NCBI GenBank assembly: GCA_030068145.1
Contig: JAPJBO010000629.1
Location: forward strand, 1 to 64,000
Length of the DNA stretch: 64,000 nt
Reading direction: 5' to 3'
Origin: Diplonema papillatum
Taxonomy: Eukaryota; Euglenozoa; Diplonemea; Diplonemida; Diplonemidae
In this document: in pieces, positions 10,251 through 53,442 of the stretch
Position numbering within the stretch: the first letter of the stretch is position 1
How the letters are laid out: each line of letters opens with the position of its first letter
Notes under the pieces: model-generated
What the model was told of the DNA's origin: nothing
Seen by the model: only the letters and a program-made list of their open reading frames with translations
Databases searched by the model: none
Program-made: the position numbers and the translations under genes

Positions 10251-11875
10251 TTAGTCGGAGTCGGAGTCGTCGAACGTCTTGACCTGGTTCTGGGTACCGG
10301 CGGCGTCGACGTCGAAGCTGGCGTTGTTTCTGCTCGGGGGTCCGTAGTCACCCTTCTTGCCCTTCTTGCCACCCTTCTTTCCGCCCTTGTCTCCCTTTCC
10401 TCCCTTCTTGCCTCCCTTGTCACCCTTTCCTCCCTTGTCGCCCTTCGGCTTGGGGGTGAAGCCACCAGCCCACTCGATCCACACCTGGCTGCCCTTGATG
10501 TCGATTTGGCCCTGTTTGTGGAGGTTTGCGGAGTGGGCTCATGAAAATGTATCGGGCAAACAACAAGCCTGGTGATGCACTACGATACAACCCTCAGCTC
10601 GATTGGCAGGTAGTGTCAGTAGTTTGAACTTGCTATGCAGCAACAATCTGTAACGATAGACAGCACAAGCCGCTACAGACTACCTCTTTGCACGCGTCGT
10701 GTCATGCTTCGGTCGCTTCTTGCCCCGCGCACTGTTTGTCTCCGGTGTGCACTTCACGTCCGCTGTGGAGTCTGACGAGCCCGAGGAATCACCAGACGAT
10801 TCGGCGCATTTTCCATTTCTCCCTCGCAGGTTGTCTCCGCGGCCGAAATCTCGACTCCCCAGTAGTTTGAGCTTGACAATATTATGCAACAACTGTCTGT
10901 GACGATAGACTGCATAGCAGTTGTTATCCCTGCAGATACGAGAGCAGTGTTTGCATTCGAACAATTCGAGCGCAGAAACTGTCAAGCCGTGTCAATTGGC
11001 AGACGGGAAAAAAAGCTTTTTCCGACGACTCGGTCCCGCCGGCATTTCAGAGGTTCGCGGGAGCATTTTTAAATGAAAAGAAAGCACACCGGCTTCGCGG
11101 CTTCAACGGCGGACTCTTCGCTGTCGAGGGTGACGAAGGCCTTGCCAGTCGAAACACCCTCACGCATGATCCAGCGGCAGCGGCTCACCCAGTAGTCCTT
11201 GAGGGCTCCCTTGATGTCTTCCTCGGTGCAGTCCTCCGGAAGCTTGTTGAGGCAGACCTGCATCTTCGACTGCTGTGCGTAGTAGTCCTCGTCCGAGAGC
11301 CACTCTCCCTTGTTGCCGCCCTTGTCGCCCTTCTTGCCGCCCTTCTTTCCTCCCTTGTCGCCCTTCTTTCCCTTCTTGCCTCCCTTCTTGCCGCCTTCTC
11401 CCTCTTCGTCGTCACGCTTGCGCTTCTCGCCCACCTCGGCCACTGCCTTCGGTGACTTCTTCGCTGCCGGCTTCTCGTCAGAGTCGGAGTCGGAGTCCGA
11501 GTCGGAGTCGTCAGAGTCGGCCTTGACAGCTTTAGCGGCGCCGTTGGTCGTTTTGGCTGCCTTCGCGGGGGGTTCGTCGTCGGACGATGAGTCGTCGTCG
11601 GAGGAGGAAGAGTCCTTCTTGGCGGCTGCCTTCTTAGCAGTGGCCTTGGGGGACGCCTTGGCCTTGGGGGCCGGCTTGTCGTCGGAGGAGGAGTCGTCGT
11701 CAGAGGACGAGTCCTCCGCGGCTGCCGCCTTCTTCGGCACTGCCTTCGGCGACGCCTTCTTCGCCGGGGCCGGCGCGTCCGAAGACGAGTCGTCGCTGCT
11801 GCTGTCTGAGTCGGCGGCGGCGGCGGCCGGCATCTTCACGATGTCCTCCAACTTGTTCGTCAGCTTCGCGGCTTC
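10251..11875 (-). CDS. nucleolin-like acidic RRM protein, copy 1
   Basis: Exons 11875-11090 and 10511-10251 on the minus strand, with a 578-bp intron (donor CCG|GTGTGC, acceptor cctccacaaacag) in phase 0. The first in-frame ATG is at 11833, giving 334 aa. The frame is conserved between paralogues back to an acceptor (ttcag) at 11876, so a 5' exon probably exists. Order: alternating acidic Ser/Asp and basic Lys/Ala tracts as in nucleolin or Nopp140, an NLS (GEKRKRDDEEGE), Gly/Lys repeats, then one RRM with RNP2 VCLNKLP and RNP1 GKAFVTLD. The RRM is completed across the intron (AAKP|GQIDIKGSQVWIEWA). The tail is Gly/Lys-Gly repeats in place of the usual RGG, ending DDSDSD. Likely a nucleolar rRNA-processing factor; that role is inferred from composition. 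Confidence 0.85.
10626..10682 (-). promoter_or_regulatory. gene-end module, intron copy
   Basis: Starts with the TAG stop. ATCGTTACAGAT follows, with CAGAT beginning 32 nt after the first base of the stop, then CTGCATAGC. Here the first stem-loop of the module is weak. Confidence 0.55.
10680..10850 (-). CDS. exon with basic KHDTTRAKR terminus, inside intron
   Basis: Minus-strand frame open for about 57 codons before TAG at 10680-10682. It has a Ser/Asp stretch (SSGDSSGSSDSTAD) and ends GKKRPKHDTTRAKR. The tail matches the ends of exons at 30746-30950 and 53440-53659. It sits on the same strand as the nucleolin-like gene and within its intron, so it could act as an alternative last exon. An acceptor near 10862 is only weakly supported. 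A conserved 3' module follows the stop (10626-10682). Confidence 0.45.
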   Translation of the reverse strand, partial: DFGRGDNLRGRNGKCAESSGDSSGSSDSTADVKCTPETNSARGKKRPKHDTTRAKR

Positions 11876-11998
11876 CTGAACAGTTTTCGTGTTTCATCCC
11901 ATATGGCGTACAGATTGGTGTCCTTCGACCTTTTTAATGAAAGTTCATCTGAGAACCCGAGGCTTTAAAGTCTTCGGAATGATTTTTTTTTAACCAGG

Positions 11999-12176
11999 GT
12001 GGCGTGTGTCATTGTCATCCCTGCAGGAGGTGACAATTCCAAACGCCGCCGTGTATACACACGGGATAACAGAAGACTGTCTCATTAGTGAGCATACACG
12101 GTGGCGTGTGTCATTGTCATCCCTGCAGGGGTGACAATTCCAAACGCCGCCGTGTATACACACGGGATAACAGAAG
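11999..12176. repeat. 78-bp direct repeat pair
   Basis: GGTGGCGTGTGTCATTGTCA ... CACACGGGATAACAGAAG occurs at 11999-12077 and 12101-12176, separated by about 23 bp, with a two-base indel. No coding function is seen. Confidence 0.9.
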
Positions 12177-12263
12177 CTACCCTAGGTGGTAAAAAAGCCG
12201 GTCCATCTCCTGCTGATGGACCGGACTGTGGTATACCGCGATAATGATAGTCGAATTTCTTCA

Positions 12264-12317
12264 GTGAGAATGCAGAGAATCTGTGGCGACAGTCTGCATT
12301 AGTCACTCGGGTGACTA
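12264..12317 (-). promoter_or_regulatory. gene-end module after stop codon
   Basis: The stop codon lies in the stem TAGTCAC-CCGA-GTGACTA. It is followed by AATGCAG ... CTGCATT, a second possible 7-bp stem, with GTCGCCACAGAT between. CAGAT begins 34 nt from the stop. Confidence 0.6.
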
Positions 12318-12452
12318 CCTCTTCGAACACCCCAAGGCGTGTTTACGGTGCTTCCTCTCGCCCCTCTCTTCGCCTTCGCGCGCCCGCTTGGCGATGTTAC
12401 CGTCCCTAGCTGGTATGCCTCCCTTCGATTGTATGCATCCTCCGTCGTTCCA
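12315..12452 (-). CDS. basic terminal exon ending KHALGCSKR
   Basis: A strong acceptor (cacctgcag at 12453-12458 on the plus strand) opens a frame of 45 codons beginning WNDGGC and rich in Arg/Glu/Lys (AKRAREGEERGERKHRKH), ending CSKR and TAG at 12315-12317. It has no start codon, so it reads as a last exon. Upstream exons were not identified. The ending and the 3' sequence belong to the gene-end module shared with 10680, 30948 and 53440. Confidence 0.45.
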   Translation of the reverse strand, partial: WNDGGCIQSKGGIPARDGNIAKRAREGEERGERKHRKHALGCSKR

Positions 12453-12979
12453 CTGCAGGTGACGATGTCAGCACCCTCCTCGTTGGTGTCGGTGTCGTGG
12501 GCGGACGCTCGCATTGTGTCGTGGTGAGCTGTGTAAGTTCAGGATCCTTGTCCAGGCGTGAAGGCCCGTGCGTTGCAGTCCTGTGCCGCGCGGTGGTTTA
12601 ACCCGATCACCGGATGTTGCCGACGGAGGTGAGCCTCCGCGCGTTCTCCGGCGCCATTGCTTGCGTAGTCATCCGGCGGTGGTGGAGCCATTGTCCGGGG
12701 CGTCGGGTAGAGGTCCGCCAACCCTTGCAGTCTTCGCAGGCACCCATGGTGCTTGTGCCTGCAACACTCTGTGATTGTCTCACGTGTCGCGGAAATCGAC
12801 ATTCGGTGTTCTCGCGCAGTCCACGGCGGTCCCTCACAGCAGAACGCCACTGATCTGCTCAGGGGGTGACGCTCTGCGACGCCAAAAAAAATGGTATTAT
12901 TGGATGGCTGGCCCCAGTGGGAGCCATCCGGCCTTCTTGACAAGTGACAAGGATACGCAAAAGCTGCGTTACGGATCGT

Positions 12980-13740
12980 TAGGTTCTCCACAGTACGCGA
13001 CTGGGTTCGTGTCTGGCGCAAGTCCATAATGGACTGAAGACTCTGCTGGGTTCGGTATCCCCTTGAGGCCTCCGAGCCTCGGTGTGACCCGCCGTAAACG
13101 TCGTGGCTCCGCCCCGGTCGATCCCTGCAGAATCCCATTCGTCACGCGAGCAGGCTTCTCCATCCCCGTGTGCTGTTTGAAGCATCCATAGCCTAGCGCA
13201 CACGTCCCCAGGGTCTTGACTCGAAAACTTCGATCAGCCTCGGTGCGACCGGCTGTACATGCTTCCAAGATCGTGACACGAGGTCTTCAACAGCCGAGGT
13301 GCACGCCGCTGTAAACGTCGTGGCTTCACCCCGGTCTGTCCCTGCAGAATCCCATTCGTCACGCGAGCAGGCTTCCCCATCCCCGTGTGGTTCCCCATCC
13401 CCGTGTAGCCTCGGTGCGATCGGCTGGACATGCTTCCAAGATCTTGGTCTTCAACACGCCTAGGTGCGCGCCGCCGAAAATGTCGTGGCTTCACCCCGGT
13501 CTGTCCCGGTCAGAATCCCATTCGTCACGCGACCATCCCCGTGTGCTGTTTGAAGCATCGCCATCGTCTGCACACGTCCCCAAGGTCCTGACTCGAAATC
13601 TTCGATCAGCCTCGGTGCGATTGGAAACGTCGTGGTTCCACTCCGGTCTGTCCCTGCAGAACTCCATTCGTCACGCGAGAAGGCTCTCCCTCAGTATGAA
13701 GCATCTCCATAGCCTGGCGTACACCTGACTCGAAGTTCTA
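12980..13740. repeat. degenerate tandem repeat, about 170-220-bp unit
   Basis: Three to four diverged copies share GCCTCGGTGCGACCGGCTG, AAACGTCGTGGCTTCACCCC, CAGAATCCCATTCGTCACGC and CCATCCCCGTGTG. I saw no gene between 12453 and 13740. Confidence 0.75.
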
Positions 13741-13785
13741 TATCAGCCTCTGCTTGAGTGAATCTTCGCGGACGCAGCGGCCACA

Positions 13786-14349
13786 ATGGGACCTTCGCCG
13801 GTCCGGAGGGCACTCACGTACGGGGCACGCCTTCACGTCGACTGCTGTGTCGATTGTGGCAAGATCCACACCGCGGGGGCGTTCTGCGCCCGGTGCGGGA
13901 AACGGGGTCTGGCCACCTGCCTGAAAGCGGCGCCCCCGAGGGAAAATCGCCCCTGTTCGTTGATCGTTTTAGCGGCGGACGGGTTCGTGTGCCCCGCATG
14001 CATAGTGGCGGTGCCAGGGCTGGAACCACTCTTCTCAAGAAGAGTTCCAAAGAAAGATCGGAAGTGTTGCAGCAGAGCACGACGCTCCGACGAAGCTTGG
14101 CGCGAGAGCCTTTGCTCGCTGCCGTTGAGGAGGGCCCGGTCAAAAGACCGCTCTCCTCGCCTTGTTCGCTCAGTCCACCTTGGCAGGCACGCATCGCTGG
14201 GCCAGCGGTGTTCGATCGTCGCCATGAGCGACCTGCGCACCTACGAAAGGACGCTCGCCTACATTGCGGGAATGGATGGGCGGACGCGACCGACCTGGAC
14301 TGCCCATGGTCAACGAACCCAACGTGGCCAAAAACTCGTCAAATGGTAA
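13786..14349 (+). CDS. Cys-rich ORF, possible recombinase N-terminal fragment
   Basis: An ATG-initiated 187-codon frame. Residues about 19-46 hold paired CxxC motifs (CCVDC, CARC) and a later CPAC, suggesting a zinc-binding module. The middle is Arg-rich. The C-terminus has SDLRTYERTLAYIAGMDG, which resembles the helical core-binding start of tyrosine recombinases in DIRS/VIPER-like elements. That resemblance is weak and there is no catalytic domain. It may be a transposon remnant. Confidence 0.35.
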   Translation: MGPSPVRRALTYGARLHVDCCVDCGKIHTAGAFCARCGKRGLATCLKAAPPRENRPCSLIVLAADGFVCPACIVAVPGLEPLFSRRVPKKDRKCCSRARRSDEAWRESLCSLPLRRARSKDRSPRLVRSVHLGRHASLGQRCSIVAMSDLRTYERTLAYIAGMDGRTRPTWTAHGQRTQRGQKLVKW

Positions 14350-14484
14350 AGTGGTAAGTTAGGCTGACGTATGCCTTTTTCCTGCGACTACAACTATTTG
14401 AGGGAGTACACCCGGTACGTTTGCCTATTCCGCCTCTTCTGGCATTCGTCCAATCGGTCACATAACGTTAGCCGTGCACGTGCC

Positions 14485-15380
14485 GTGCGTATAAGTCCAA
14501 CTTTGAGTGCGTGAGCCTCTCCGAAGAGAGGTCCATCACACTAGTTCCAGGCTACTTAGCCCGGGTCTCCGGGTCGCGTCCCCTCCTTCTCTTGGTCGCC
14601 TGGTCTTGCGTCTTGCTGGTCCGTCCGGGCTGGTCACTTCGCGCTTCGTGCACCTTGTACCACTCCCTGCTGCACGGGTTTCTTCCGTTCGTGCCACCTG
14701 CGACGCGGACCGCTTTTCTGCTCGTCTGCGCATGGGCTGCTCTGTACTCCTTGCCTTATCCGCGTTTGCCGCTTCTCGTACCGACCGCGCCTGCCTTTCC
14801 TGTTCTGCCTTCCTCTGTGTCCGTCGGCCGCTTCTCGTACCGACCGCGCCTGCCTTTCCTGTTCTGCCTTCCTCTGTGTCCGTCGGCCGCCTCTCGTACC
14901 GACCGCGCCTGCCTTTCCTGTTCTGCCTTCCTCTGTGTCCGTCGGCCGCTTCTCGTACCGACCGCGCCTGCCTTTCCTGTTCTGCCTTTCTCTGTGTCCG
15001 TCGGCCGCCTCTCGTACCGACCGCGCCTGCCTTTCCTGTTCTGCCTTTCTCTGTGTTCGTCGGCCGCTTCGGCTGCGCGTGCCGTGCGTATAAGTCGATC
15101 TTTGAGTGCGTGAGCCCCTCCGAAGAAAGGTCGATCGCACTAGTTCCAAGCTACTTAGCCCGGGTCTCTGGGTCGCGTCCCCTCCTTCTTCTTTTTGGTC
15201 GCCTGGTCTTGCGTCTTGTTGATCCGTCCGGGCTGGGGGCTTCGCGCTTCCCCTTCGTCTTGCATCACCTCGTCTCCACTCCCTGCCGCACGGGCTCCTA
15301 CGTTTTGTGCCACCTGCGACGCGGGTCGCTTTACTGCTTTTCTGCGCGACGGCTGCTCTGTACTCGTTGCCTTATCCGCG
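14485..15380. repeat. duplicated 3' region of the LINE
   Basis: Two direct copies of about 290 bp (from about 14486 and about 15078) share GTGCCGTGCGTATAAGTC, AGCTACTTAGCCCGGGTCTC and CCACCTGCGACGCGG. Between them the 60-bp unit CGTACCGACCGCGCCTGCCT ... GTCCGTCGGCCGC is repeated five times (14765-15070). On the LINE strand this encodes Arg/Lys/Gly-rich peptide repeats. Confidence 0.85.
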
Positions 15381-17605
15381 ATTGCCGCTTCTCGTCGTAC
15401 CGACCGCGCCTGCCTTTCCTGTTCTGCTGTGGTCCGTCGGCCGCCTCAGCTCGGGCGTCCTGCTGTGCTGTCTGGATCTCCTCGTCTTCCTTCTTACGTT
15501 GCTTGGCACTCCGTGCTGCCCGCGCCGCTTGCGGCGCGGGCCTCTTCAGAGCCGGTCGTCCTCGTGCGCGCTGTTCCGCCTTCGTATCCTGGTTCGCGCC
15601 CTCTGCCTCCGGCGCACCTCGTGACACTTCCTTGCCCTGGGCGGTGTTCCTCTTCGAGCTCCTCCCTCCTCGTCCCGCCTGATTCTCCTGTTCCGCTAAG
15701 GTGAACCACTTCTGGGCCCGTCGCCCCCTTTCCTCGTCCGATGGGTACCACTTTTTGAAATCGAATTTTCCTAGTCTCTCCCCGTCTTCCCTGCGCTCTG
15801 CTTGTACCTTTCCGTGTTCTGCCTTCGTGTACTCTCCTGCCGACACCTCGAGCCCTCGCAGCGCTTGCAGGGTATCTCTGCCCAGGATACAGCGCCTCTC
15901 CAGACCCTCCGTCCACCGTCCTGACGCGCCGAGCCGCCGAAGCCAACCTATTGATTTCTTTCTTGCCGGCAAAAGCTCCCCATCGTGGGTTCCTTGGAGC
16001 GTCTTGAGCATCCCCAACAGCGTCCTCATTTTTCCCGCGAGCGCAGCTCCTCCATGCGCTTCCCCTTTCTGGCCTGCGTCCTCCTCTCCGTCCTCTGCGT
16101 CTTCCGGCCCAACCGCCTTCTGTCCGCGTCGCGGCAGGTCCATTCCGGATTCGACTTCAAAGTCAACGGCGAGTTCTATGAACGTCACCGCCATCTCTTC
16201 CTCGCTCTTGGCCCAACGCAGACTCGCCAGCCAATGCGCCAGCGCTAAGTATAGCGCCCTTCCATGCTTCCAGTTTCTGGGCATGTAGTCCGCCAGTGAA
16301 TTCTGGATCACTTCCGTCTCCTGCGGCGCCCACTCCCAAGGATATGCAAGCCCACGTCCGTCGTTTTCCCGCTGCACCGGCTTCTTGTCCCTCCTCTGCC
16401 TCTCCAGGGTGATCTGGACCATCATGCCCTGCACACTGTTGACAAGTTGGCGCGTCAAGCCCCTGCAGACCCATGCCCCTGCTCCTTCACCTCCTCTCTC
16501 TCTCTTCGGTTTGATCCCGCAAACGGACATACACTTCGGCCATTTCTGCCATTCTAGCGCGGTTACCGCATACGTCGTTCGTATGGCGTCCCACTCTCCA
16601 CATCGCCACCACATGTGTAGGTGGTCCTCGTCTTCCTTTCCGCAGTACTTGCACGTTGCGCTCGGTTGCATCTTCCGTTGGTGCAACCGCGTCTGCGGCA
16701 GCACTGCATCCGCCATGATGTGCCTGAGCACACCTCGTTCATACGCGCTAAGGTTGACGGCAGTCGCTCCGCGCTCTTCCCTAGCCTCCCCTTTCCCGCG
16801 CCCTACTTCCAGCAGTCGCAACGTTGCGTTGCGGTCCACGCCCTCACCAATCCCTTCCAGGTTCTTCCTGTCGATGTTCCGCCACCGCCAGAGCCTCAGG
16901 GCTTCGCGCGCCAGGTGCCCCAGCTCCTTGAGGTCGTCCAGTGTCCTCAGATCGACTTCCTTCCCTCGCCCGTCGCCCGTCTCCGTCTCGTCTGTATGGT
17001 CGTCGGGAATTCGGATCGACCACGGTCCCGTCCTTTGCCACTTCATGGCCTCTAACGTCCCGTCAAGCAAGTGTACCGGCCCCGAGGTGCTCGGGCAGGG
17101 AAAGACGCGGGCCGCCGCTTGCATGTGCGCCCTACACCTCTCTGAGTCCTTCATCAGCGCCATCCACGTCATGACTCGTCGGTAGTGCACGGCCACCGGT
17201 GGATCCACCAAGTGACCCTTCCTCACGAGCGAGAGGCTAATCGCGGCGCAACGTCCCCGCCTATCCCTACCTGCAAGTCCCCTTTCAATTGCAGCTGTCA
17301 ACTGTGCGAGCCACTTCTTCTCCGGCCCCTGTACCTCTACCCCGTAAATTGCCTTCGGGATCACGACCGAAGCGTAGATCCTCTCCTGCGGCAGGGGCAA
17401 CTTGCCCGCCCTTTTCGCGATTTTTGACGCCTCGTCCAACCTGCTCGACAAGACCTTCTGGGCGCCTCCGTCGGTACCCAAACCTGCCCCCAAGCACTTC
17501 AACCACGCCACCTTCTCGACCTCCTGGCCGGCTATCCGAGCCGTGGCTCTGCAGTACCGCCGAACTTGGCTCCCGTGTAGCAGGCTTTCCCTGGTACCTA
17601 GTGCA
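15331..17605 (-). pseudogene. non-LTR retrotransposon, C-terminal part only
   Basis: The long minus-strand frame carries the thumb-side region that follows LINE reverse transcriptases (VAWLKCLGAGLG, YASVVIPKAIYGVE). About 350 codons on is a CCHC motif, CKYCGKEDEDHLHMWWRC (near 16590-16665), typical of the C-terminus of R2/Jockey-type proteins. The tail is Lys/Arg/Glu-rich. The catalytic palm domain, which should lie further 5', is missing: recognisable homology ends near 17600 and a repeat A copy begins at 17628. The copy is thus 5'-truncated, as is common for LINEs, although its frame remains open. Confidence 0.8.
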
Positions 17606-17627
17606 CAACGAAATATACAAAAGAAAA

Positions 17628-17830
17628 TACTCGAGGGACAAGCATTCCGAAGGAGCTTAGAGGGAGAAGACAATACAACTACAAAGTGGGTCCTTTTTGT
17701 GGAACGCTTACGCCCGTCACTAAACCCAGATTTACCTGTGTTTCGTGTGGGATACAACACATTTACCTCCTTTTGATCTATCGCAACTGGCAGTCTCCTC
17801 AAGCATTTCCTACAAAGCAGGTGCGTATAC
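17628..17830 (+). mobile_element. repeat A copy at the LINE 5' end
   Basis: Starts TACTCGAGGGACAAGC and ends AAAGCAGGTGCGTATAC. Internal blocks are CAATACAACTACAAAGTGGG, TTACCTGTGTTTCGTGTGGG and CGCAACTGGCAGTCTCCTCA. It is the most compact full copy, about 203 bp. Confidence 0.85.
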
Positions 17831-17876
17831 AAAAAAAAAACGCGCAATCGAAAACATAGCATACAGCTTCAACTCC

Positions 17877-17935
17877 GCTAACGGCCGATGAGAAGGCCTT
17901 CGCTGCCTTCGGCGCGACAGGCTTCAAGTACTGTG
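17877..17935 (+). pseudogene. duplicated exon-like segment, copy 1
   Basis: After an acceptor-like catacag, about 20 codons read STPLTADEKAFAAFGATG. The same peptide occurs at 38538-38612. Shared non-coding flanks show that a block of about 130 bp was copied. No other exons are seen. Confidence 0.4.
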
Positions 17936-18060
17936 TTGGTGGAGGTGGGGAGGTGTGTTCTAAGCGCTGAGAAGGACGGTGAAAATGTGGAGAAAAGGCT
18001 CATTCATAAAAGATATTCTTGTTGCATGCGTACCAAGGTTGTTCCTGGGTCTTGCGCCTG

Positions 18061-18204
18061 AACGTAACTAGGCGAAGTACAGGCGCCGCTCAGTAACCGA
18101 CTAGTCTTCCAGAAGAAAATAGTGAACCCTGGGTGTAACTAGGCGAAGTACAGGCGCCGCTCAGTAACCGACTAGTCTTTTAGAAGAAATAGTGAACCCT
18201 GGGT
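18061..18204. repeat. 72-bp tandem duplication
   Basis: GTAACTAGGCGAAGTACAGG ... GAACCCTGGGTG occurs twice in tandem with two small differences. Confidence 0.9.
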
Positions 18205-18369
18205 GATCCAGCTTAGATGATGGTGCTGTAACAGTCTTCCGAGGCAGGCACCGGGCAAAGGACTTCACCGTTGTGATGCAGAGTGAGAAGGCTCAGCCGC
18301 GCCAGTGTCAGACGAATCAGCCAGGTGAAGCCTGCCTCACCTGGACAAGGTAGGGGTGAATATACGGTG

Positions 18370-18660
18370 TGTTTCTCGGGTTGGCGACGGGATGATAACC
18401 TTGTACAAATGTTTTTTCTCGTCAGAATAGTATCAATCTTCTAAGATATCTTCGATCTTCGCTTACACCACCGTGTGTTGTTTTCTCACTCAGGACTTTG
18501 ACCGGTTGTGTGTGAAGAGGGCATACCTTGAAAACGTAGGCGTTCAACGACATTTTGCTTTTTTGATGAGTGTGTGTTGATGGTCTTTTGCTCTGGAGAA
18601 AGTAGATGAGGCGGGTAGTCCCTGCATATTTGTTTAGAGTGACGTTTGCTTGACTCGCCA
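18370..18660 (+). repeat. composite of dispersed repeats C, H and G
   Basis: Contains TATCAATCTTCTAAGAT (repeat C, see 36660 and 60470), CACCACCGTGTGTTGTTTTC followed by acceptor-like tcactcag (repeat H, see 31290 and 59083), and ACCTTGAAAACGTAGGCGTT to CCCTGCATATTT (repeat G, also at 40035). From here to 19160 I see no gene. Confidence 0.7.
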
Positions 18661-19456
18661 CCCCGTTCCGGCTGCTTGAACGACACGCAAGGCACTCGGC
18701 AATCAGAGCAGACAGAAGGTAAAGAGAGAGCAGTAAAGAAGGCGACACGTTCTGCGGTTTACCTTTTCCCTTGGTGCCAGGGAAAGCCGGAGCCAAGCTT
18801 CACGCGGCGGTACTCGGCGGTACTGCAGAGCCTACGGGTCAAGTGGCTCAAACTAAAGCACCAAGGCGTGGCGCACCTTGGGGCTTGGCGCTCGCGCTGA
18901 ACACAAGCTCGTCGAGACGGTCAGCCGCAGGGCAGAGCGGACGGGGTTGTAGCACTGTGCTGCCTCCGACTCCGACTCAAGCTTTGCAAGATGTGGTTGA
19001 CCGTCACGTTCCTGGACCAGGAGCGGCCTTTTGCTTCTTTCTTCTTTTCTTGATCGCGTTTGCTGTGGCGCCGGTTCACGGCCACAAAGACTCGGGGCAG
19101 CCTGGGGTTAAGGTACCGTAATTGGAATAACGTTGCACCGGGTACCTTCTTCTCCAAGCCACAAGGTTTACCGTGGGAATTGGAGCAAAGCGCATGGCAG
19201 GAGGAGCACCTACCCAAACCAACACCAGAAGAGTTTGGGAGGAGGCGGGGGTAACTACTAGTCACTCTGGCAGCAACAAAAGCCCAAACCCAGCAGGAGC
19301 AAAGAATGTCAGTCTCACCTTCCTCTTTCTTTTGCCGCCTTGCACACCTCTTTTTTCGGTAAAGCACACAAACACCCACGACCAGAAGAAACCCGCGACA
19401 CGCTTCCATTTCCTCTTTTTTCGCTGATGTCGGGATGAGAGACCGGAAGACGAGCG

Positions 19457-30745: not shown

Positions 30746-30950
30746 CCCGGCCCCGCCAGTGAGCAAAACGAAGACAAGGGACGACGCCCCCCCCCCAACG
30801 GAAGAAGTGTCCATGCCCCGCGTGAAATCGAAGGCAGGGCTCGCAAAAGCATGCACACCGGCGAGAAAGAGAAAGGACGCAAAGCGACCGCGCGGAGACG
30901 ATGATTCGAATGAGTGCCTGAAGCACGACACGGTACGGTCGAAGAGGTAG
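30746..30950 (+). CDS. basic terminal exon ending KHDTVRSKR
   Basis: Following ccccgccag, a frame of about 65 codons runs to TAG at 30948-30950. It is Lys/Arg/Pro-rich with an NLS-like ARKRKDAKRPRGDDDSNE and ends LKHDTVRSKR. The tail is shared with exons at 10680 and 53440. It is probably the last exon of a nuclear protein gene or of an element. Whether upstream coding lies in the 135-bp array is unclear. Confidence 0.45.
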
Positions 30951-31118
30951 TCACCTTGTGACTAATGCAGGCCATCGCTACAGATATTCTGCATGCTAAC
31001 CTCAATAGCCTATCGACAGTTTATCAGCAGGCTAGCATAGTACACGACACGGTACGATCGAAGAGGTAGTCACCTAGTGACTAATGCAGGCCATCGCTAC
31101 AGATATTCTGCATGCTAA
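30948..31118 (+). promoter_or_regulatory. gene-end module, tandem pair
   Basis: Copy 1 (30948-31001) and copy 2 (31067-31118) each have the stop codon inside the stem TAGTCAC-CTW-GTGACTA, then AATGCAG ... CTGCAT around ATCGCTACAGAT, with CAGAT 33 nt from the stop. Copy 2 keeps the codons HDTVRSKR-stop before it (31043-31069) but no exon, so the block was duplicated with its stop codon. Confidence 0.65.
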
Positions 31119-31919: not shown

Positions 31920-32185
31920 CGGCGGACGCGCGAAACCCGGCTACGGCTGTCCCTACCTACTATCTGGCGAAACAGCAGTCAAAGAGAACGGACTTGAAAC
32001 TTTCAGCGGGGAAAGAAGACCTTGTTGAGTTTGACTCTAGTCTGACTTTGTGCAGTGACACGAGAGGTGTAGAATAGGTGGGAGGCCGCAACAATGAAAT
32101 ACCACTTCTCTTGTTGTCGCTTTACTTATCCAATGATGGGAAGACGGCAGCTGCTCCCTTGTGGGGTTAGGGTCTTCGGATCCGT
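31920..32185 (+). repeat. coding-like repeat with inverted copy at 56.3 kb
   Basis: Matches 56270-56530 in reverse. Both encode [12 protein letters not shown], and the 56-kb version continues [15 protein letters not shown] to a stop after RGVE. The copy here is disrupted by an early TGA at 32026. Shared downstream DNA includes GCTTTACTTATCCAATGATG. Probably a dispersed terminal exon or transposon fragment. Confidence 0.6.
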
Positions 32186-32623
32186 AGCTTATCCGTACGT
32201 CGGGTTAGAATCGTCTGCAGTTCGGATGCAGAATGTCTGCAGTGACGGTCTACATCAGTCACGGGCGGTGAAACGTGAGCCTCGCGCCGCACCGGCCCGG
32301 GACAATGGGCCACGACGGACACAAGCCGAGAACAGCCAATCAAGGAACCCGAAGACAGAGGGAACCCCACGGCGGTGAGGTATTTGCTCGCTTGAGTGAG
32401 TCGATGAAGCCCCTTTTTTAACCAACGGCTGCGACATGCTGCCAGGTCAAATTAGTCACTGGGCACCAGACCTCTTTATGTGGGGATGGCATTTGGATGC
32501 AAACAACCCAAAAAAAGAACAGGGCGCTGTCTTGTTGGCGCCGGGGGGAGGTACCAGCCTGTTTGTGAGTTAACATGATCGTTAGATTCATCTCCCCCCA
32601 ACCACGTTGCCAGCTAGTGTGTT

Positions 32624-42145: not shown

Positions 42146-42226
42146 ATCTCTTCCTTCACGAACGTGTTGTACAGCAGATCAGCGCGTGTGTCGAAGATCC
42201 ACATCTGGCCCAAGCCGCTGCAGCTG
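42146..42226 (-). repeat. partial duplicate of the four-TM gene's coding sequence
   Basis: GATCTCTTCCTTCACGAACG ... CCAAGCCGCTGCAG repeats 42480-42595 of the neighbouring gene with an internal deletion of about 30 bp. It lies just 3' of the gene's stop. Confidence 0.85.
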
Positions 42227-42237
42227 CCACACCGAGT

Positions 42238-45606: not shown

Positions 45607-45827
45607 CTGCAACAAACCCCTGCATTGGTTTTGAACACACCGACATTACAAACGTTAATTTCTCTTCGTCAGCTAGTCGAATACCCGAGTTGCCGCCGGA
45701 TAGACAGGCCGTCGCTTCCAATGGACATCCAGAACAAAAGAGAATTGAGACAACAAAAAACTATAATTGATCGTCGGGAACACACAAAAAAAGAAATGCC
45801 TTTACGATGGAGGCTATCACCAGAAAG

Positions 45828-46058
45828 CTAGATTTTTGCCTCTTTGCGTGGGTTCTCGACCTCTGCTTCCTCGTCTGCCTTTCGTTTGAAGCCAACCATT
45901 TCAAACATCTTTTTGGCGTTGGCCTTTTCTTGTTCGGACATGCCCCTTGTGAGATCCTTCCTGGCCGCCACCTTCTTCTTATTTTTAGCAGCTTCTTTTT
46001 CTCTGAAAGCTTTTAGGTCTGCTTTCGCGTTCTTTGACAGAACTTCGGGCATCGACAA
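45828..46058 (-). CDS. small Lys-rich ORF
   Basis: From ATG at 46052 (MPEVLSKNAKADLKAFREKE), about 74 codons of charged coiled-coil-like sequence ending PRKEAKI-TAG. It follows the ORF at 46414 on the same strand, overlapping its end in another frame. It may be the last exon of that gene if a splice joins them, or a separate small ORF of the element. Confidence 0.4.
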   Translation of the reverse strand: MSMPEVLSKNAKADLKAFREKEAAKNKKKVAARKDLTRGMSEQEKANAKKMFEMVGFKRKADEEAEVENPRKEAKI

Positions 46059-46414
46059 CCGTGTCGTACAAACGACGTCCCGTCAGAAAGCCTGTCCGGC
46101 GGGTTGCTGACCTTTGTGCCACAAATACAAAGCACCCAAGAGGGTCCGAACTTCAGCCCCACCTTGCCGAACCTGTCACACAGCGCCTCCTCCAACTTGT
46201 TCGTAATCATCGAGCTACTGTCCGCCCGCGATGTGTATGAGTTGTCGTGCACTTCCGCGTCGTGTGTTAGCAGGTGCTTTCGGACGTGCTTTGCCGAGTG
46301 CTTTTTCAGCTCCAAACGGACCACTATATGGAGGTTCAACTTCTTTTCGACGACCTTCTGTAGTCCCGCGTCGTTGAGCACTTCCGTCTCGTCGTCGCGC
46401 TCCTTATAAAACAT
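46013..46414 (-). CDS. unrecognised ORF in the large element
   Basis: From ATG at 46414 a frame runs about 100 codons of good composition (KERDDETEVLNDAGLQKVVE, later NKLEEALCDRFGKVGL) up to a GT at CACAAAG|GTCAGC, a possible donor near 46115. Beyond that the composition worsens. GPSWVLCICG faintly recalls dynein light chains, but nothing else supports that family. An acidic frame (46580-46420, TEEREENDNSETEESD) lies just upstream with a one-base offset and may be the preceding exon or a frameshifted part. Confidence 0.4.
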   Translation of the reverse strand: MFYKERDDETEVLNDAGLQKVVEKKLNLHIVVRLELKKHSAKHVRKHLLTHDAEVHDNSYTSRADSSSMITNKLEEALCDRFGKVGLKFGPSWVLCICGTKVSNPPDRLSDGTSFVRHGCRCPKFCQRTRKQT

Positions 46415-46833
46415 TCCAGCAGGTGCGGCCGTATTGTGGACTCGACGTTTGCAGCGAGCCGTTAGTCATAAAGTCGGCGTTGTACTTCATGTCTTCTTCC
46501 TTCAGGTCGATGGTGTCGCTTTCTTCGGTCTCGCTGTTGTCGTTCTCCTCACGCTCTTCCGTCGTGCGGACTTGGAGATATTTCGTAAAGCAGTGAAACG
46601 TAACGCCGATACAGAATTGCATTTTACGCTTTTGAATTTTATTTCGTGCCTTTATTTGGGTAATTTCTTTTGTAGCCAGTTCAATGGAAACGATCATTTT
46701 ACGAGAGAGATGATTTGCGCTTTATTTAGAGTTCGAGCTCGCTTGAGATTCCGGATGCAAAAGTCACCTGTAAGGCGATTGCATCGTATTGGGGTCGCGT
46801 TTCGTTTAGGCTACAGCAGCAGATGTTAGAACA

Positions 46834-46884
46834 CAGAGAAGCATTTCATAAAGCTGTCTAGCTTTATTATGCAATGCTTCTCTG
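46834..46884. repeat. 51-bp hairpin
   Basis: CAGAGAAGCATT-TCATAAAGCT, loop GTCT, AGCTTTATTATGC-AATGCTTCTCTG. It abuts the MITE at 46885. Confidence 0.85.
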
Positions 46885-47303
46885 TTAAATTTAGGGTCAA
46901 CGACAAAACGGATTCTATATAACTGGATTACGACAAAGTGGATTCATAATCCACTTTGTCGAGACAAATTGGATTATAATCCACTTTGTCGCGACAAAGT
47001 GGATTATTAGTGGATTATAATCCAGTAATAATCCACTTTGTCGCTTTTGATAATCCACTTTGTCGCTTCTGACAACCGGCATGAATTATATAGGGGGACC
47101 CTTTCACAAAAAGTTCCCACAGGGAAAGTGACTATTTTGAGCTGTTTGAGTTCATTGAAACCATCAAAAGTGAGCTTAGGTCCGTCATACGGGGCGACAA
47201 AGTGGATTAGGCGACAAAGTGGATTGGCGACAAAGTGGATTATAATCCACTTTGTCGTAATCCAGTTATATAGAATCCACTTTGTCGTTTTCCCTAAATT
47301 TAA
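46885..47303. mobile_element. 419-bp MITE built of GACAAAGTGGATTA subrepeats
   Basis: Terminal inverted repeats of about 75 bp start TTAAATTTAGGG (46885) and end CCCTAAATTTAA (47303), and share TCTATATAACTGGATTACGA. Each arm is made of direct and inverted copies of CGACAAAGTGGATTA, so the arms can also fold on themselves. The centre (47090-47190) is unique. No ORF. Confidence 0.85.
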
Positions 47304-47304
47304 A

Positions 47305-47675
47305 CGCGCCGGTTTGAAGACCCCTGGCGCCCCTGTCCACCAACACCCCCAAAAAGCCCCAAACCCTTTAACTAACTCCAAAGCCCCCGCAGTCTGAGGG
47401 AAACATGAGACCTATGCCCCTCAAGTACCACCAAAAAAAAAAAGGACACCCCAAGGCCAGTTCCCCGTAGTTCCCCCGTAGTACCCCATGGCTATACCGA
47501 TCACACCAGTAGTTTTGTTTTATTATTTTACTTGTGCGTTGTCGACAACATATTGTGGTTGATGTGTCAGATGTAGATCTAAAGCCGCCCACGTCAAATT
47601 GTTAAGCATTGAGTTCTTTTAAGTACATGAACCACATGGATTAGCATGCACTTTGTTAAGCAGCGGCTTAACAAT
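47305..47675. other. no gene seen
   Basis: Holds the right end of the large element (47444-47482) and an inverted GTTAAGC-agcg-GCTTAAC just outside the next element. No coding exon. Confidence 0.5.
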
Positions 47676-47789
47676 GACGGCAAATTTTACACAAAAAAAA
47701 AGGGGTACGGTGCCTTAGGGGACTAGTCCCACTGTGAAATGTGCCCTTAGGGGACTAGTCCCACTTGGAAATTGTTACCTTGAGCAGAT

Positions 47790-48480
47790 TTTGAGCAAAT
47801 TTTGGAAATTTTCATTTTTTCCAGATTTTCCAGATTTTTGCCGATTTTCCCAGATTTTGGCCATTTTGCCGATTTTTCCCATTTTTGGCCATTTTTGCCG
47901 ATTTTTCCCATTTTTGGCCATTTTTGCCCATTTTTCCAGATTTTGGCCGATTTTCCACATGTGTCCAGTTTATAATCTGGAAAAATCGGCAAAAATGGCC
48001 AAAAATGGGAAAAATCGGCAAAAATGGCCAAAAATGGGAAAAATCGGCAAAATGGCCAAAATCTGGGAAAATCGGCAAAAATCTGGAAAATCTGGAAAAA
48101 TCGGCCAAAATGGCCCAGATCTGCCAAAATCTTGAAAAATCGGCAAAAATGGCCAAAATCTGGAAAACCTGGAAAATTCGGCAAAAATAGCCAAAATCTG
48201 CCAAAATCTGGAAAAATCGGCAAAAATGGTCAAAATCTGGAAACCCTGGAAAAATCGGCAAAAATGGCCAAAATCTGGAAAAATCGGCAAAAATGGTCAA
48301 AATCTGCAAAACCTGGAAAAATCGGCAAAAATGGCCAAATTCTGGCAAAATCTGGAAAAATCGGCAAAAATGCCAAAATCTGCCAAAATCTGGCAAAATC
48401 GGCCAAAAATGGCGAAAAATGGCCATACTCCGAAAAATCCGAAAAATCTGAAAAATCTGAAAATTTCCGAAAAATTGCTA
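47790..48480. repeat. AAATCGGCAAAAATGGCC minisatellite with central inversion
   Basis: About 12- to 29-bp units (AAAATCGGC, AAAAATGGCC, AAAATCTGG) in varied order. Units before about 47958 are in reverse orientation to those after it, forming a near-perfect palindrome with arms of about 130 bp around ACATGTGTCCAGTTTATAAT. Both strands stay open for 100-200 codons of Lys/Phe-rich peptide, an effect of composition. Confidence 0.95.
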
Positions 48481-49059
48481 AAAATTTGCTAAGTACACTT
48501 CCCTGGCAAAAAGTCCAATGAAATTGTTTGCCCTTAGGGGACTACCTTATGCGGGTTTAATATGAAACGTGTTTAGTACGAAACGGTTTTAATACGAAAC
48601 GTGTTAATTAAGAAACACCCCGGATCTGAAGCTATGAAACATTAACACGTTTCGTATTAAAAACTGCACTTCCATAGGGGTTTTGAGGGGTTATGTACTT
48701 AGAGTAAACTGGGGATCGACAGTAAAAAAAGGACGCAGGAAAATTGACAGAAAATCTGAACCCGTCAAAAAAGAAATAGAGCGAAGCAGATTCGACAATC
48801 CGGGCGAGTTTCGTGGTGACCGGGTTGAGTGACGCAAATTTACTGGAAGAGAAAGTTTCCGATCCAACAGGAGATGAGGCCGACCAAGGTCTTCGTTGAA
48901 GACAGCCCCCAGGCAGTGTTGACGATGGCTCCCAGCTCTTGGGAGCTGGTTCTTCTGGCTCTTTGGGAGCTGGGAAGAGCCAGCGGGAGCTGGGTTTCTG
49001 GTGAAAATTTTGCTCGTGCGTGCAGCGGACCTTTTTTGACGATTTTTAGCTCGAGATGA

Positions 49060-49660
49060 GCTCCGATGGGGACCCGGGGGTCTTTACGAGATGCAGGGCA
49101 CCGGACATGGAAACCACCACGTTTGTGACGGGAAGGACGGGAATCGACCCCCTGGGTGCCGTTTTTTCGTTGTCCACGGAGCAGACCTTTTTCGACGACT
49201 TTTTGCTCGCGATCAGCTCCGATGAAGAGAACCGCGAAAATTAGACCTGGGGCTCAGAAAGTACGTGCGTGGTTCCCGGGTCTTTACGCTATGCTGGGCA
49301 CCGGGCATGGAAACCACCGGGTGTGTTGAAAAAGGCGGGAATCGATCCCCTGAATGGTGACATTTTCCCTCTGGTCCACGTAGCAGACTTTTTTCGACGA
49401 ATTTACGCTCGCGATCAGCTCCGATGAAGAGATTCGTGAAAATTAGACCCGGGGATTACAAACCATGTGCGTGGTTTGTGGGTCTTTGTAAGAGACAGGG
49501 CCCCGGTGCGGAAACCACCGGTGTGCATTGAGAAGGACGGGAATCAATCCCCCGAGTGGTGACTTTTTTTTGCTGGTCCACGTAGCAGACCTTTTTCGGC
49601 GATTTTTTGCGTGATCAGCTCCGATGAAGAGATCCGCAAAAAATAGACCCGGATATCCAA
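49060..49660. repeat. three tandem copies, about 190-bp unit
   Basis: Shared blocks: GATCAGCTCCGATGAAGAGA, GGGTCTTTACG, CATGGAAACCACCG, GACGGGAATCGACCCC and GCAGACCTTTTTCGACGA. Upstream GGGAGCTGG repeats (48930-48995) have inverted partners near 49725-49780. Confidence 0.88.
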
Positions 49661-49667
49661 AAAGAAA

Positions 49668-50416
49668 ATGTGCAAATGTTTTCTCGCATTTTGGGGGAAT
49701 TTTGAGATGGCTTTTTATTGTGCCCTGCTGGCTCCCGCTGGCTCTTTCCAGCTCCCGAGCTGGCTCCAGCTCCGAGAGCCACCGCCAACACTGCCCCAGG
49801 CCACCGGTTGCGGGGACAACGTTCTCGCCGAACTCCATCGCAACTTCAACGAATGTCTCGTACTGAGTGAATGCGCAGATTGCATCAACGTTCTGACTTC
49901 GCTGATTTTGACCAAGAGCTTGCAAACGATGAATGCGTTGCTGTGGAGGTGGATGCGGTTCATGCTAGTCTTGGGGCTGGCGAGCACGAGAAGAAGCTGG
50001 ATGGTAATCACCTGGAGACGCTTTGCTCCTTCTTTAAAAAAGGGCAACTCCGCCTTTGCTTGCGCTGCCCTTCCATACGACCGGCTTACCCTGTCATCAC
50101 TGACGCGTGCCCGCCTAATGAACACCTTCGTGAACACTGTGTCAGGAACTCGTGGTTGGCACTGGATGCTTGTAACAACTGACTCGCTCCGAAGATGCGT
50201 TGTATCTTGCTCGCTTTCTGACTTTTGCGGAAGCAAGATAGTCAGCCACCTTGCAACGGTCTTTTCCGCCGACACCGACTCTTGGTTCATAGAGACGGAC
50301 GCTCGAGGATGTCAACAAGACGATTGGAGCTGCGGTTACCATTCCTGGCATCCCAGAGCCCGCCCAAAATCTTCATGCACAAGTGCCAGAACGCTCTTGT
50401 CGCTAATACGCTGACC
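49668..50416 (+). pseudogene. Ulp1-like cysteine protease, degenerate
   Basis: The frame to the stop at 50414 carries GTRGWHWMLVTTDS (His of HW near 50155), a hydrophobic helix (KIVSHLATVF) and CQQDDWSCGYHSW (Gln and Cys near 50320), matching the order H, D, Q, C of Ulp1/C48 peptidases. In the preceding 270 bp a different frame (49871-50140) has better composition, which points to a frameshift near 50140. Such proteases are often carried by plant and protist DNA transposons. The fit rests on short motifs only. Confidence 0.4.
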
Positions 50417-50957
50417 GCGATACGTTTTTCCTGCTCAAAGGCTCGATAACCCCAAGATTTTCGGGAACAAAAATGGGGGATCATCATGGGGTTTCAACAG
50501 TTCTCAAATTTCACTAAGTACGTCAGACCCCATGTTTTTAGTACGAAACGTGTTAATTAAGAAACACTTTGGCCGAAAAAGTAGCTACGAAACATTTACA
50601 CGTTTCGTATTAAACCCGCATACGGTAGTCCCCTAAGGGCACATTTTCATTAAGAAGTACTGGGAAATGCACTTAGCAACTTTTTTGCAAATTCTTACCA
50701 GGAATTGTAATGCAAAATAGGGACTAGTCCCCTAAGGGCACATTTCACATTGGGACTAGTCCCCTAAGGCACTTTTCCCAAAAAAAAAAGACTTTTTTTT
50801 TTGTAAAATTTGCCGTCTGTTTTCTAGACCAAGCTTGTGCACGCGGACTAAGGTAGGGACCGCGCGCAGTTAGAGGGCTTTGTGACCAGTCGCTGTGTCC
50901 ACGCATCTGCAGAAAACCAAAACCTGCGAGGCACCTTGTTTATTATGAAAGACAAGC

Positions 50958-51775
50958 ATGCCAAAGAGACCAAGATGCGACTCTTCTGAAGAGACGTCCA
51001 GTGCAAGTGAGGTAGAAGAAGCAGAAGAGGACGAAGAGAGCGAACCCGGACCTACGACGTGCCAAGTGAGCAGGAAGACGAAGACAAGCCTGTCGCCGAC
51101 ATGTCTGAAAACGCTCAGGCGTATTACAAGTATTGGTATGAAAGAAGCGTGCGGGAGCTTGGAGCAGGTTGCGTTTTTGAGGTTGGGCTTCTGACCAACC
51201 GTACCCTGGGACGACCTATAGGCTGGTGACCGTTTGATTCGGCATGAAATCGTGCAGCACTGGATCAGTGACTTTCTTGTAGTGCCAGAAAGAAGAAGGA
51301 AAAGGTGATCCAGGCTCTGTTCCAGCTTTCGCAGGCTCCTCGCCTACCGACAGCAATCCGGGCGGACCGGCCAAGCTGTACCAGCATATCTGCGCCGGAC
51401 GCCACTGCAACGACGCGCTTCCGTAGCCTCTCGTAGAATCTCGACTGAGGAATGGGAGGAGTACGAACATTTGTCTTCGCTACAGCTTTTTCAGCGTTGC
51501 AAAAGAGGCGGTCCAACACATGCCAAACAGCACCGTTCGAACTTGCGGGGTGGCCTGCTTTCACTGAGCCAACAGGGCCGCCAAGAATTCCTTGGTGCTT
51601 CGAGAGGCTTCCCCCACATTGTTCACGAGGACGACGCTGACTTTGACGATGACTGTGACTGTGACAAGCCCAACGTCAGAATCAACACGTTCGACGCATG
51701 CTCGGCCTTTTACCATCGGCGCACAAATAGCGCAAGTTTTGCTGCCCTCTTTATACCGCGATTTATCCTATTATG
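50958..51775 (+). pseudogene. unrecognised protein pseudogene
   Basis: Coding-like sequence passes between frames. ATG at 50958 starts MPKRPRCDSSEETSSASEVE, a basic then acidic N-terminus. A shift near 51040 leads to EDEDKPVADMSENAQAYYKY and on to a TGA at 51227. Further pieces are IRHEIVQHWISDFLVVPE (about 51235), VIQALFQLSQAPRLPTAIRA (about 51305), and a long frame from about 51400 with STEEWEEYEHLSSLQLFQRC and an acidic DDADFDDDCDCDK. The pieces are collinear, so one gene has decayed. Family unknown. The transposon-type terminus at 52035-52044 lies downstream. Confidence 0.45.
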
Positions 51776-51779
51776 AGCT

Positions 51780-52615
51780 TCTTTCACATCTATGCAGTCA
51801 CAAGTCAAATTTGGCTATATTTTACAAAAGAAAAAGTCTTTCAATTATAGAAAGTGAAAAGAAGAAGATTATTTCCGGCCGCTCAATTTTACATATCCTT
51901 GAAGAATCTTTCGCAACTACGACTATTTGATGCAAGGTAAAGGAGAAAGTTGGAAGTTATTGGTAAGTTAATATTTTGTTGGGACCCTCGTAGCTCGCTG
52001 GGCCAGGCGCGCTACGTGCTGGGCAAAAAAAAAAGCGACACCCCATTTCAAGTGTTGCCGGATTTGTACCGGGTTTTTGGACGGGTTCGATCACGCCATA
52101 TTAAATGCACATATTTTCGTTCACGTAAGCTCAGCTTCTCGTTCCACGCGGCGAGGCCAATGGCGGGATTCCCGCATGCCGGGTGAAATCCCGACAGACA
52201 GGTGGCAAGTGGAAGGTTGCCACCCTTCCCTTTGTTTTGCTGCAGAGTTGCTGCATTGCTTCCATTGCCCTTTTTCCGTGCCAATTCCAAACTACATAAC
52301 TTCCAGCACCTTGGGTACAGACCCACTACAACATGCTCACAAAACTGAATCTGCATAGCCTCTCAGTCGAAACTGCGTAACATGCTCGCAGAACTGAGTT
52401 CCAAGATCTTACGTACAGACCCACCCGCCACTACGACATGCTCGCAAGACTGAATCTGCACAGTCCCGGGTTTGGGGGTTTGGGAATCGCGGTCGTGCGG
52501 CCGCCGGCGTCAAGCCCAACTGCAATGCCCAACACTGAGGATCGCCGATACATATTCTCCGGGCAATTTCGCACAGCCCATCCGGATGCGTACCAACACG
52601 GACCCATAACGGACC
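51780..52615. other. no gene seen
   Basis: AT-rich DNA, then an A run plus GCGACACCCC at 52035-52044 matching the ends of the 4.5-kb element, then mixed sequence with two partly matching ACATGCTC-CAARACTGA segments (52330, 52382, 52437). Confidence 0.5.
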
Positions 52616-52617
52616 AC

Positions 52618-53000
52618 GTATGCACACGCACAGTGCATGTACACGTAGTACGCACAGTGCATGCACAGTGCATGCACACGTAAGTATGCACAGTGCATGC
52701 ACACGTAGTATGCACTGTGCATGCACTGTGCATGCACACGTAAGTATGCACGGTCATGCACACGTAGTATGCACAGTGCATGCACTGTGCATGCACACGT
52801 AAGTATGCACAGTCATGCACACGTAGTATGCACAGTGCATGTACACGTAGTATGCACAGTGCAAGCACACGTAGTATGCACTGTGCATGCACTGTGCATG
52901 CACACGTAAGTATGCACGGTCATGCACAGTGCATGCACAGTGCATGCACAGTGCATGCACAGGTAGTATGCACGGTGCATGCACACGTAGTACCACCACA
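52618..53000. repeat. palindromic GTGCATGCAC / CACGTAGTATGCAC array
   Basis: I count thirteen exact GTGCATGCAC palindromes plus variants (TGTGCATGCACTGTGCATGC, CGGTCATGCACACGTA) joined by ACACGTAAGTATGCAC. It can fold in many ways. All six frames stay open as His/Ala/Cys-rich peptides, which is an artefact of the array. Confidence 0.95.
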
Positions 53001-53390
53001 AATCGGGATGGACCACATCCCGGCATGTAACGGTGCACAGGGGGGCAGAAGATAGACCCAGACAGTGGTGCTTCGTGTTAACCAGCGGCAGGCAATTCGA
53101 TGCAGTTTCAGCCTTACTGGGCTCCCTGAGAACGCAGCGGAAGGCTTAAACTTGCGCTAATCGAGTGAAAAGGAAGGCGACGGGGTGAACACGAACACGC
53201 CAGTTCTTCTACACGCAAGACAACCCAAATCAAAGGAGCGCAGTTGAGTGGTGCAAAATGAACGAATGATGCGGAGTCAGGCAGTGGAACGGAAAAACGG
53301 AAAGAAATGAACAGTGGGGGTCGGGGGTTACTGAATCTCTGGAGCTTCTGAGCATATTCACCGCCTGCCCGATCGAACGTTGTCGAGGGG

Positions 53391-53442
53391 TTAGAATGCA
53401 AAGAATCTGCGGCGATAATCTGCATCGCCGGCGTCGCGGTTA
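53391..53442 (-). promoter_or_regulatory. gene-end module after TAA stop
   Basis: From the stop: GGCGATGCAG, ATTATCGCCGCAGATTCT, TTGCATTCTAAC. CAGAT begins 33 nt after the first base of the stop. GGCGAT and ATCGCC can pair here in place of the TAGTCAC stem. Confidence 0.6.

Follow-up and report, generated by a model that had tools for sequence, protein, structure and literature searches.

A short gene-end module recurs in a 64,000-nt stretch of Diplonema papillatum DNA (contig JAPJBO010000629.1, positions 1 to 64,000; hereafter, the window, which is part of contig C629 in the 271 Mb, 2,910-contig genome searched here). In each copy a basic C-terminus is followed at once by a stop codon and then by a short segment containing CAGAT. 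We consider it very probable that this module is the 3′ end of a long interspersed nuclear element (LINE), and that the young family of this LINE (family A) enters arrays of a 10-bp repeat inside a carrier element with terminal inverted repeats (TIRs), with a single orientation and in register with the repeat unit.

The four gene ends reported by the first-pass annotation, at 10.68, 12.3, 30.9, and 53.4 kb (families C, D, B, and A, respectively), are all present, and their CAGAT lies 32, 34, 33, and 33 nt after the stop. The last distance was counted by eye; the 53.4-kb copy has an additional, earlier CAGAT 20 nt from the stop, and the aligned one is at 33 nt. Another copy, at 31.06 kb, also has a spacing of 33 nt. 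This copy was absent from that annotation, as were a copy of the second hairpin only at ~10.9 kb, the long upstream homology of the family, and the inverted repeats and 5-bp duplication that bracket the 53.4-kb copy. A 24-base motif of the module matched four places in the window with ≤3 mismatches (the 31.06-kb copy included, the 10.68-kb copy excluded), compared with none in 100 dinucleotide shuffles. Genome-wide it was found at 6,834 places with ≤3 mismatches, against 4 for the control (for all motif counts, the reversed sequence). A regular expression for a KH...KR-like end, a stop, 26–34 nt, and CAGAT, written after the sites were known, matched four times in the window and in 0 of 100 single-base shuffles.

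Twenty 9.9-kb stretches were fetched around exact motif copies and aligned on the motif. Nineteen of these copies match others from the common 3′ end back to varied points, ~0 to 3.1 kb upstream, and no qualifying match was detected for L010 among the 20 aligned stretches. The longest open frames upstream of the module encode a reverse transcriptase (profile PF00078, E 8.9e-21) and end in KHDTSRAKR-stop; the basic C-terminus is therefore the end of the second open reading frame (ORF2) and the segment after it is a short 3′ untranslated region (UTR), i.e., the module is a LINE 3′ end. The closest solved chains to the reverse transcriptase are LINE-1 ORF2p and the R2 protein, and a group II intron model also matches it, far under its cut-off. 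An endonuclease of the apurinic/apyrimidinic (AP) type (PF03372, E 1.9e-13, residues 233–418 of P0004) occupies the N-terminal part of the same open frame, where a weak OTU match, below cut-off, was also seen (L048). Upstream of this 1,845-aa frame lies an ORF1 (L074 read together with L048). Among the 37 genome copies scored (best candidates only), all were 99–100% identical to the query across the matched stretch, and this 1,845-aa open frame was present in 27. By the reverse transcriptase, the endonuclease, and the shared 3′ end of 5′-truncated copies, the element is a non-long-terminal-repeat retrotransposon. No RNase H was detected after the reverse transcriptase, RVT_1 being the sole domain of P0001 with E ≤0.1, and no poly(A) 3′ tail occurred in the flanks read or the tails counted.

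The exons bearing the module had been described as unrelated; they are instead truncated repeat copies, yet the mutual homology of the four barely exceeds the C-terminus. Homology reaching far upstream had been named as the sign of a single repeated gene family, and young-family copies genome-wide do extend upstream into the reverse transcriptase ORF. The proposal of a mobile unit that supplies a C-terminus together with a 3′ end was right in substance, since the C-terminus, stop, and 3′ UTR of a LINE move together; its casting as a terminal exon of host genes is unsupported.

The 53.4-kb copy belongs to the family with the 1,845-aa ORF2. It is a 5′-truncated fragment (53,391–53,602, − strand) comprising the ORF2 end (...NHDTWRAKR-stop) and the 3′ UTR, with 77% DNA identity to the LINE end of L009c and 42% protein identity to the ORF2 end. 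The fragment is held by a short TIR element of 294 bp (53,349–53,642, −; ends TGTGCCAATTCACC and GGTGAATATGCTCA), which is flanked by a 5-bp target-site duplication (GCTTC on the + strand, GAAGC on the − strand) at 53,344–53,348 (right side, read on −) and 53,643–53,647 (left side). Elsewhere in the genome, young copies are followed by TCTAAYCCAAAC, by 10-bp repeats (ATTACRCTCG), by a ATCAGGGGGTRGGTGAATTGGCTCA block that is the inverted repeat of an upstream TGAGCCAATTCACC, and then by copy-specific DNA. The ends of the carrier read TGAGCCAATTCACC.../...GGTGAATTGGCTCA, with right ends at 709 places (≤3 mismatches; control 0), and tandem arrays of the 10-bp repeat (TTACACTCGA) lie just inside both of them. 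The LINE end joined to the first 10-bp repeat occurs at 707 places (≤3 mismatches; control 0). An exact 5-bp duplication flanks 7 of 395 candidate TIR pairs, compared with a mean of 0.47 for offset flanks; other lengths gave one pair (4 bp), none (6–8 bp), and 15 (3 bp; control mean 6.3). The seven elements are those of L009, L010, L014, L023, L026, and L028 and window 53,349–53,642, and all seven hold the module, for which most of the loci had been chosen. The TIRs and target duplications suggest that the carrier is a DNA transposon.

The position of the LINE relative to the carrier end was profiled on contigs C1–C22, for which the lists give 47 right ends and 99 modules, exact matches only. 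A module is located 39–130 nt upstream of 25 of the 47 right ends, on the same strand, and no right end has one on the opposite strand (up to 300 nt away) or on its downstream side (up to 200 nt). The 25 spacings (39–41 nt in 16 cases, 50–51 in 5, and 60, 70, 80, and 130) deviate by at most 1 nt from multiples of ten, the step of ten being the repeat unit; some of these linked cases may be copies of each other. Five of the 22 unlinked right ends were fetched (L069–L073), and all five are arrays without a LINE. At C13:130279, also unlinked by the exact motif, a LINE tail that this motif misses lies slightly upstream. L009 has an empty left array; that of L028 holds a LINE, and the join there reads ...CGATTACAC–LINE–GATTACACTCGATTACACTCG.... 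Where its flanks are still readable, family A is site-specific: its copies keep one orientation and the phase of the 10-bp repeat.

Several observations weigh against this interpretation. On C1–C22 an exact right TIR is found within 200 nt for only 25 of the 99 exact modules, and a recognisable one for 15 of the 34 modules compared, so many copies must sit in decayed carriers or elsewhere. The loci from which TIR pairs were taken had been pre-selected for the module or the reverse transcriptase, and single offsets in the 5-bp duplication control reach 17 matches. The LINE join reads ...GATTACAC–LINE–GATTACACTCG, but inside a tandem array, and because the array is repetitive the target duplication of the LINE itself is not exactly readable. 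No carrier transposase was identified: the 727-aa and 351-aa open frames of L014 had no Pfam match, and an NCBIfam match (E 0.18) and solved chains were both at chance level. Families B, C, and D yielded no intact ORF and no reverse transcriptase ORF, the frames of family B reaching a maximum of 324 aa among the 150 matches scored. Finally, covariation, tried as proof of the 3′ hairpins described below, was not significant, being equalled by column shuffles in 156 of 500 cases (score) and 288 of 500 (both-sided changes).

A single-sequence fold of the 727-aa protein (P0002) was too poor for use (pLDDT 40). Judged by eye, its motif order is hAT-like, a lead only. Transposons of the hAT group have 8-bp target duplications, whereas that of the carrier is 5 bp.

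The recurrence of the module is what target-primed reverse transcription would produce, because synthesis begins at the 3′ end and frequently breaks off before completion, so that the tail is kept. We infer that reverse transcription at the array is the entry route of family A. ORF2 would nick the array at a single position within the repeat unit, with its endonuclease as the likely reader of the array, and reverse transcription would begin from the hairpin-marked 3′ end of the RNA. Most copies would end early and leave short tails, and repeated entries near one carrier end would give tandem tails, as in L023 and L028. The carrier would offer many near-identical, harmless landing sites, and LINE and carrier might also move jointly.

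The window copies at 10.6, 12.3, and 30.9 kb are taken as diverged relatives of the LINE from their shared end; families B, C, and D were assigned to it because they share the C-terminus, stop, and 3′ segment, rather than an ORF. Family B is represented by an old diverged LINE-end ending in KHDTVRSKR-stop (30,763–31,005, +), with many matches from query positions 23–28 to 266 of 271, and by a tandem 3′-end copy of 97% identity (31,043–31,118, +; stop 31,067–31,069, hairpins 31,067–31,113). The old diverged family D LINE-end (12,263–12,436, −; ...KHALGCSKR-stop, stop 12,315–12,317) has 76% identity over query positions 125–298. A sequence like the right end of the sister TIR elements described below (GATGGACCGGC) lies at 12,197–12,207 (−), with no left partner in the window. 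The family C LINE-end (10,610–10,858, −; ...KHDTTRAKR-stop, stop 10,680–10,682) has relatives of 88–93% identity among at least 42 matches scored. This family has an (ACT)n tail, and its 3′ tail together with (ACT)n was detected at 1,051 places (≤3 mismatches; control 0). The hairpin-2-only copy (10,884–10,915, −) adjoins the family C copy upstream. It is located inside an 8-bp inverted repeat (AACAACTG/CAGTTGTT, 10,871–10,932, −) that, judged by eye, would cross hairpin 2.

Families B, C, and D could instead be independent, non-autonomous elements resembling short interspersed nuclear elements (SINEs), with a borrowed LINE tail. We regard this as unlikely, although it agrees with the lack of a long ORF for family B among the scored matches and with the family C copies compared, which have only a few hundred bp in common with one another. 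Coding sequence as far as the stop belongs to the conserved part, and ten comparisons among five family examples give 46 third-, 17 first-, and 14 second-position differences in the last nine codons, as expected for a coding end under protein-level selection. The constant match starts for families B and C stem from truncated query copies, and other family C copies reach varied distances further upstream, three family C copies (L044 and two in L045) beginning directly after an ACT repeat; a SINE-like element with a fixed 5′ end was rejected for these two families on the same grounds. As a separate observation, the 3′ module also occurs as a tandem satellite at C393:22620–23347, C304:152110–152364, and C31:564563–565353, with units of 112, 56, and ~253 bp, respectively.

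For family A, the reverse transcriptase gene might be native to the TIR element, with the short copies being internal-deletion derivatives of one DNA-transposon-like unit; this would account for the single 5-bp duplication that brackets everything between the inverted repeats in seven cases. The arrangement of the copies makes it very improbable. In the copies compared, the left join is always at the array, whereas the right join falls at varied points of ORF2 (P0001 residues 63–67, 205, 529, 925, and 1014), and arrays free of the LINE exist. A full-length LINE stands in the left array in one case (L074; the copy on C53), 78 nt from the left end, but in the right array in L009, L014, and L023. 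Two modules are in tandem in L023, and L028 has three LINE copies, one left and two right. Moreover, the carriers of L009 and L023 are near-identical (98.6% over 1.8 kb) and hold differently truncated LINEs, which must therefore have entered independently.

A terminal exon or 3′-end processing element common to many host genes, the other possibilities raised at first pass, would fit the joint conservation of stop and 3′ segment and the mainly third-position codon differences, but we reject both as highly improbable, given that the homology continues into the LINE reverse transcriptase frame and that the thousands of copies include some in tandem and some within TIR elements.

The LINE 3′ end can plausibly form one or two hairpins. 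In hairpin 1 the stop codon is part of the first arm (TAGTCAC-CTT-GTGACTA at 30,948–30,964, +), as had been described for the 12.3- and 30.9-kb copies; the 31.06-kb copy is alike, and this stem is confined to these three, the 53.4- and 10.68-kb copies folding differently. Hairpin 2 (ATGCAG-R..ATC-6 nt-GAT..YTGCAT) follows at 30,965–30,994 (+) in the 30.9-kb copy. In the family D copy the two hairpins (12,270–12,317, −) are at 12,300–12,317, including the stop, and 12,270–12,299, and in the 53.4-kb copy hairpin 2 (ATGCAG...TTGCAT) is at 53,396–53,425 (−). Among the folded examples, hairpin 2 forms in families A, B, and D and hairpin 1 in B and D, family A having another short hairpin slightly further along, and the family C example folds otherwise. 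Folding z-scores for eight sequences ranged from −0.8 to −2.8, with −2.8 for the 30.9-kb and −2.6 for the 12.3-kb copy, and the −0.8 of the 53.4-kb and −0.9 of the 10.68-kb copy hardly above shuffles.

Consensus folding with RNAalifold used 52 rows, after 9 of 61 were removed (6 chance matches and 3 without one hairpin) and three were shortened. Hairpin 2 alone was predicted, with eight pairs, two of which have one both-sided change each. In 21 chosen B and D rows, 97.2% of pair cells are standard, compared with at most 46.8% with slid partners; the changes are nearly all of the G-U kind, and one pair is altered on both sides in one row. This set omits L018, L019, and L051, which begin with TAGTC and form hairpin 1 only partially. 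Over 25 rows, hairpin 1 is paired in 150 of 175 cells (85.7%), a count in which L022 was read at the wrong TAG and L052 was displaced by its insertion. By analogy with stringent-type LINEs, as passages of PMC3747384 describe them, the hairpins may serve to mark the RNA for the reverse transcriptase. Four copies (L057, L059, L060, and L062) combine hairpin 1 of the B type with hairpin 2 of the A type, as though families had swapped parts of their 3′ UTRs. As an RNA family the module was rejected, the Rfam matches at gathering cut-off in the window being to large subunit (LSU) rRNA only.

Sister carriers extend the association between LINE and TIR elements. A related end, CAGCAGGRGGTGGACCGGCTCA, was found at 481 places (≤2 mismatches; control 0), and L010 and L026 contain elements with sister-type ends, 5-bp duplications, and LINE tails. 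Partial lists were compared (100 of the 481 right ends, 82 B or D places, and 7 A places). The pairs within 600 nt comprise three B or D copies, at distances of 95, 137, and 179 nt, and three A copies, at 32, 207, and 351 nt; in each pair the copy lies upstream of the sister right end and on its strand, and these lists contain no opposite-strand pair within that distance. That TGAGCCGGTCC-type sister carriers also hold LINE tails would suggest that the pair changed repeat and target together at least once. This raises the possibility of a lasting partnership of two transposons, which we put forward tentatively and do not favour: a LINE lineage would have become a specialist of subterminal repeats in a DNA-transposon lineage, could travel with the carrier as it moves, and would have changed together with it. 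The subterminal repeats would perhaps be binding sites of the carrier transposase, and the arrays would be a harmless, self-multiplying landing place for the LINE.

A retrotransposon, Tx1L, reportedly resides in a DNA transposon, Tx1D, in Xenopus laevis, in work attributed to Christensen et al. in 2000. To our knowledge, one vertebrate case of a LINE at a fixed point inside a DNA transposon has been described. The arrangement of family A resembles Tx1L in Tx1D in that a LINE equipped with an AP-type endonuclease occupies a specific position within a TIR DNA transposon; this is a likeness of arrangement, not a clade assignment. Unlike in Tx1D, the target consists of 10-bp tandem repeats close to each end, the host is diplonemid-like, and the carrier duplication is 5 bp. 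It would be a second such case, present in hundreds of copies with long open frames that hardly differ from one another, and would offer a natural system for studying how an AP-type endonuclease gains target preference and for the co-evolution of two selfish elements. Some LINEs are known to target transposons, and target-specific elements of the Tx1 clade carry an AP-type endonuclease, according to passages of PMC4640811. The same passages describe Togen, a microsatellite-targeting LINE that inserts into short tandem repeats; family A does likewise and family C ends in (ACT)n, but the repeat array of the young family, unlike the target of Togen, is part of another transposon-like element.

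The module itself had been considered without precedent, whereas LINE 3′ ends with stem-loops are already known (excerpts of PMC3747384). As in stringent-type LINEs and the SINEs sharing their stem-loop, truncated copies keep a conserved 3′-terminal hairpin, here a predicted one; in contrast to them, some of the present families have a hairpin 1 that includes the stop codon, and no SINE partner with a separate head was seen. The ingi, RIME, and SIDER elements of trypanosomatids, in the parts of PMC12278014 that treat them, are also of Euglenozoa and likewise combine an AP-type endonuclease with a reverse transcriptase and many short copies. The present LINE differs from ingi in having no RNase H match or poly(A) tail, and its 3′ end meets the array or (ACT)n. 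An in-phase LINE inside a DNA-transposon-like element is rarer than a LINE 3′ end with stem-loops, and what is new here is that a young LINE lies in register within 10-bp arrays, immediately internal to the inverted repeats of an element flanked by 5-bp target duplications. Narrowly worded searches, in the excerpts of the literature that they returned, met no report of such a LINE-in-carrier arrangement in diplonemids.

Other LINE-like sequences were also encountered. The ten best-scoring reverse transcriptase loci (L029–L038) were set aside as another LINE group; the one 3′ region read for it (L047) is without the module on the strand searched. An 845-aa frame in the window (15,706–17,652, −) is a distant relative of the LINE ORF2 (26% identity), with no module in the 150 bases that follow its end. 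A 22-base segment of the diplonemid spliced leader matched 666 places (≤2 mismatches; reversed control 0). Comparison of match lists by eye placed such a match 3.05–3.24 kb upstream, on the same strand, of other-group reverse transcriptases at C91:365381, C192:14574, and C209:225006 (all −), as if the spliced leader formed part of the 5′ end of the element or were its target.

A tRNA search of the window found none. The three LSU rRNA matches in the window are 28S pieces (RF02543) at 57,684–57,888 (+), 56,533–56,616 (−), and 32,036–32,210 (+). They are consistent with the thousands of scattered 28S pieces of Diplonema; passages of PMC10161547 give ~3,600 of them for D. papillatum, in a ~280 Mb assembly with 52% repeats. 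A 68-bp satellite, with 48 register positions, extends from 23,775 to ~27.3 kb of the window.

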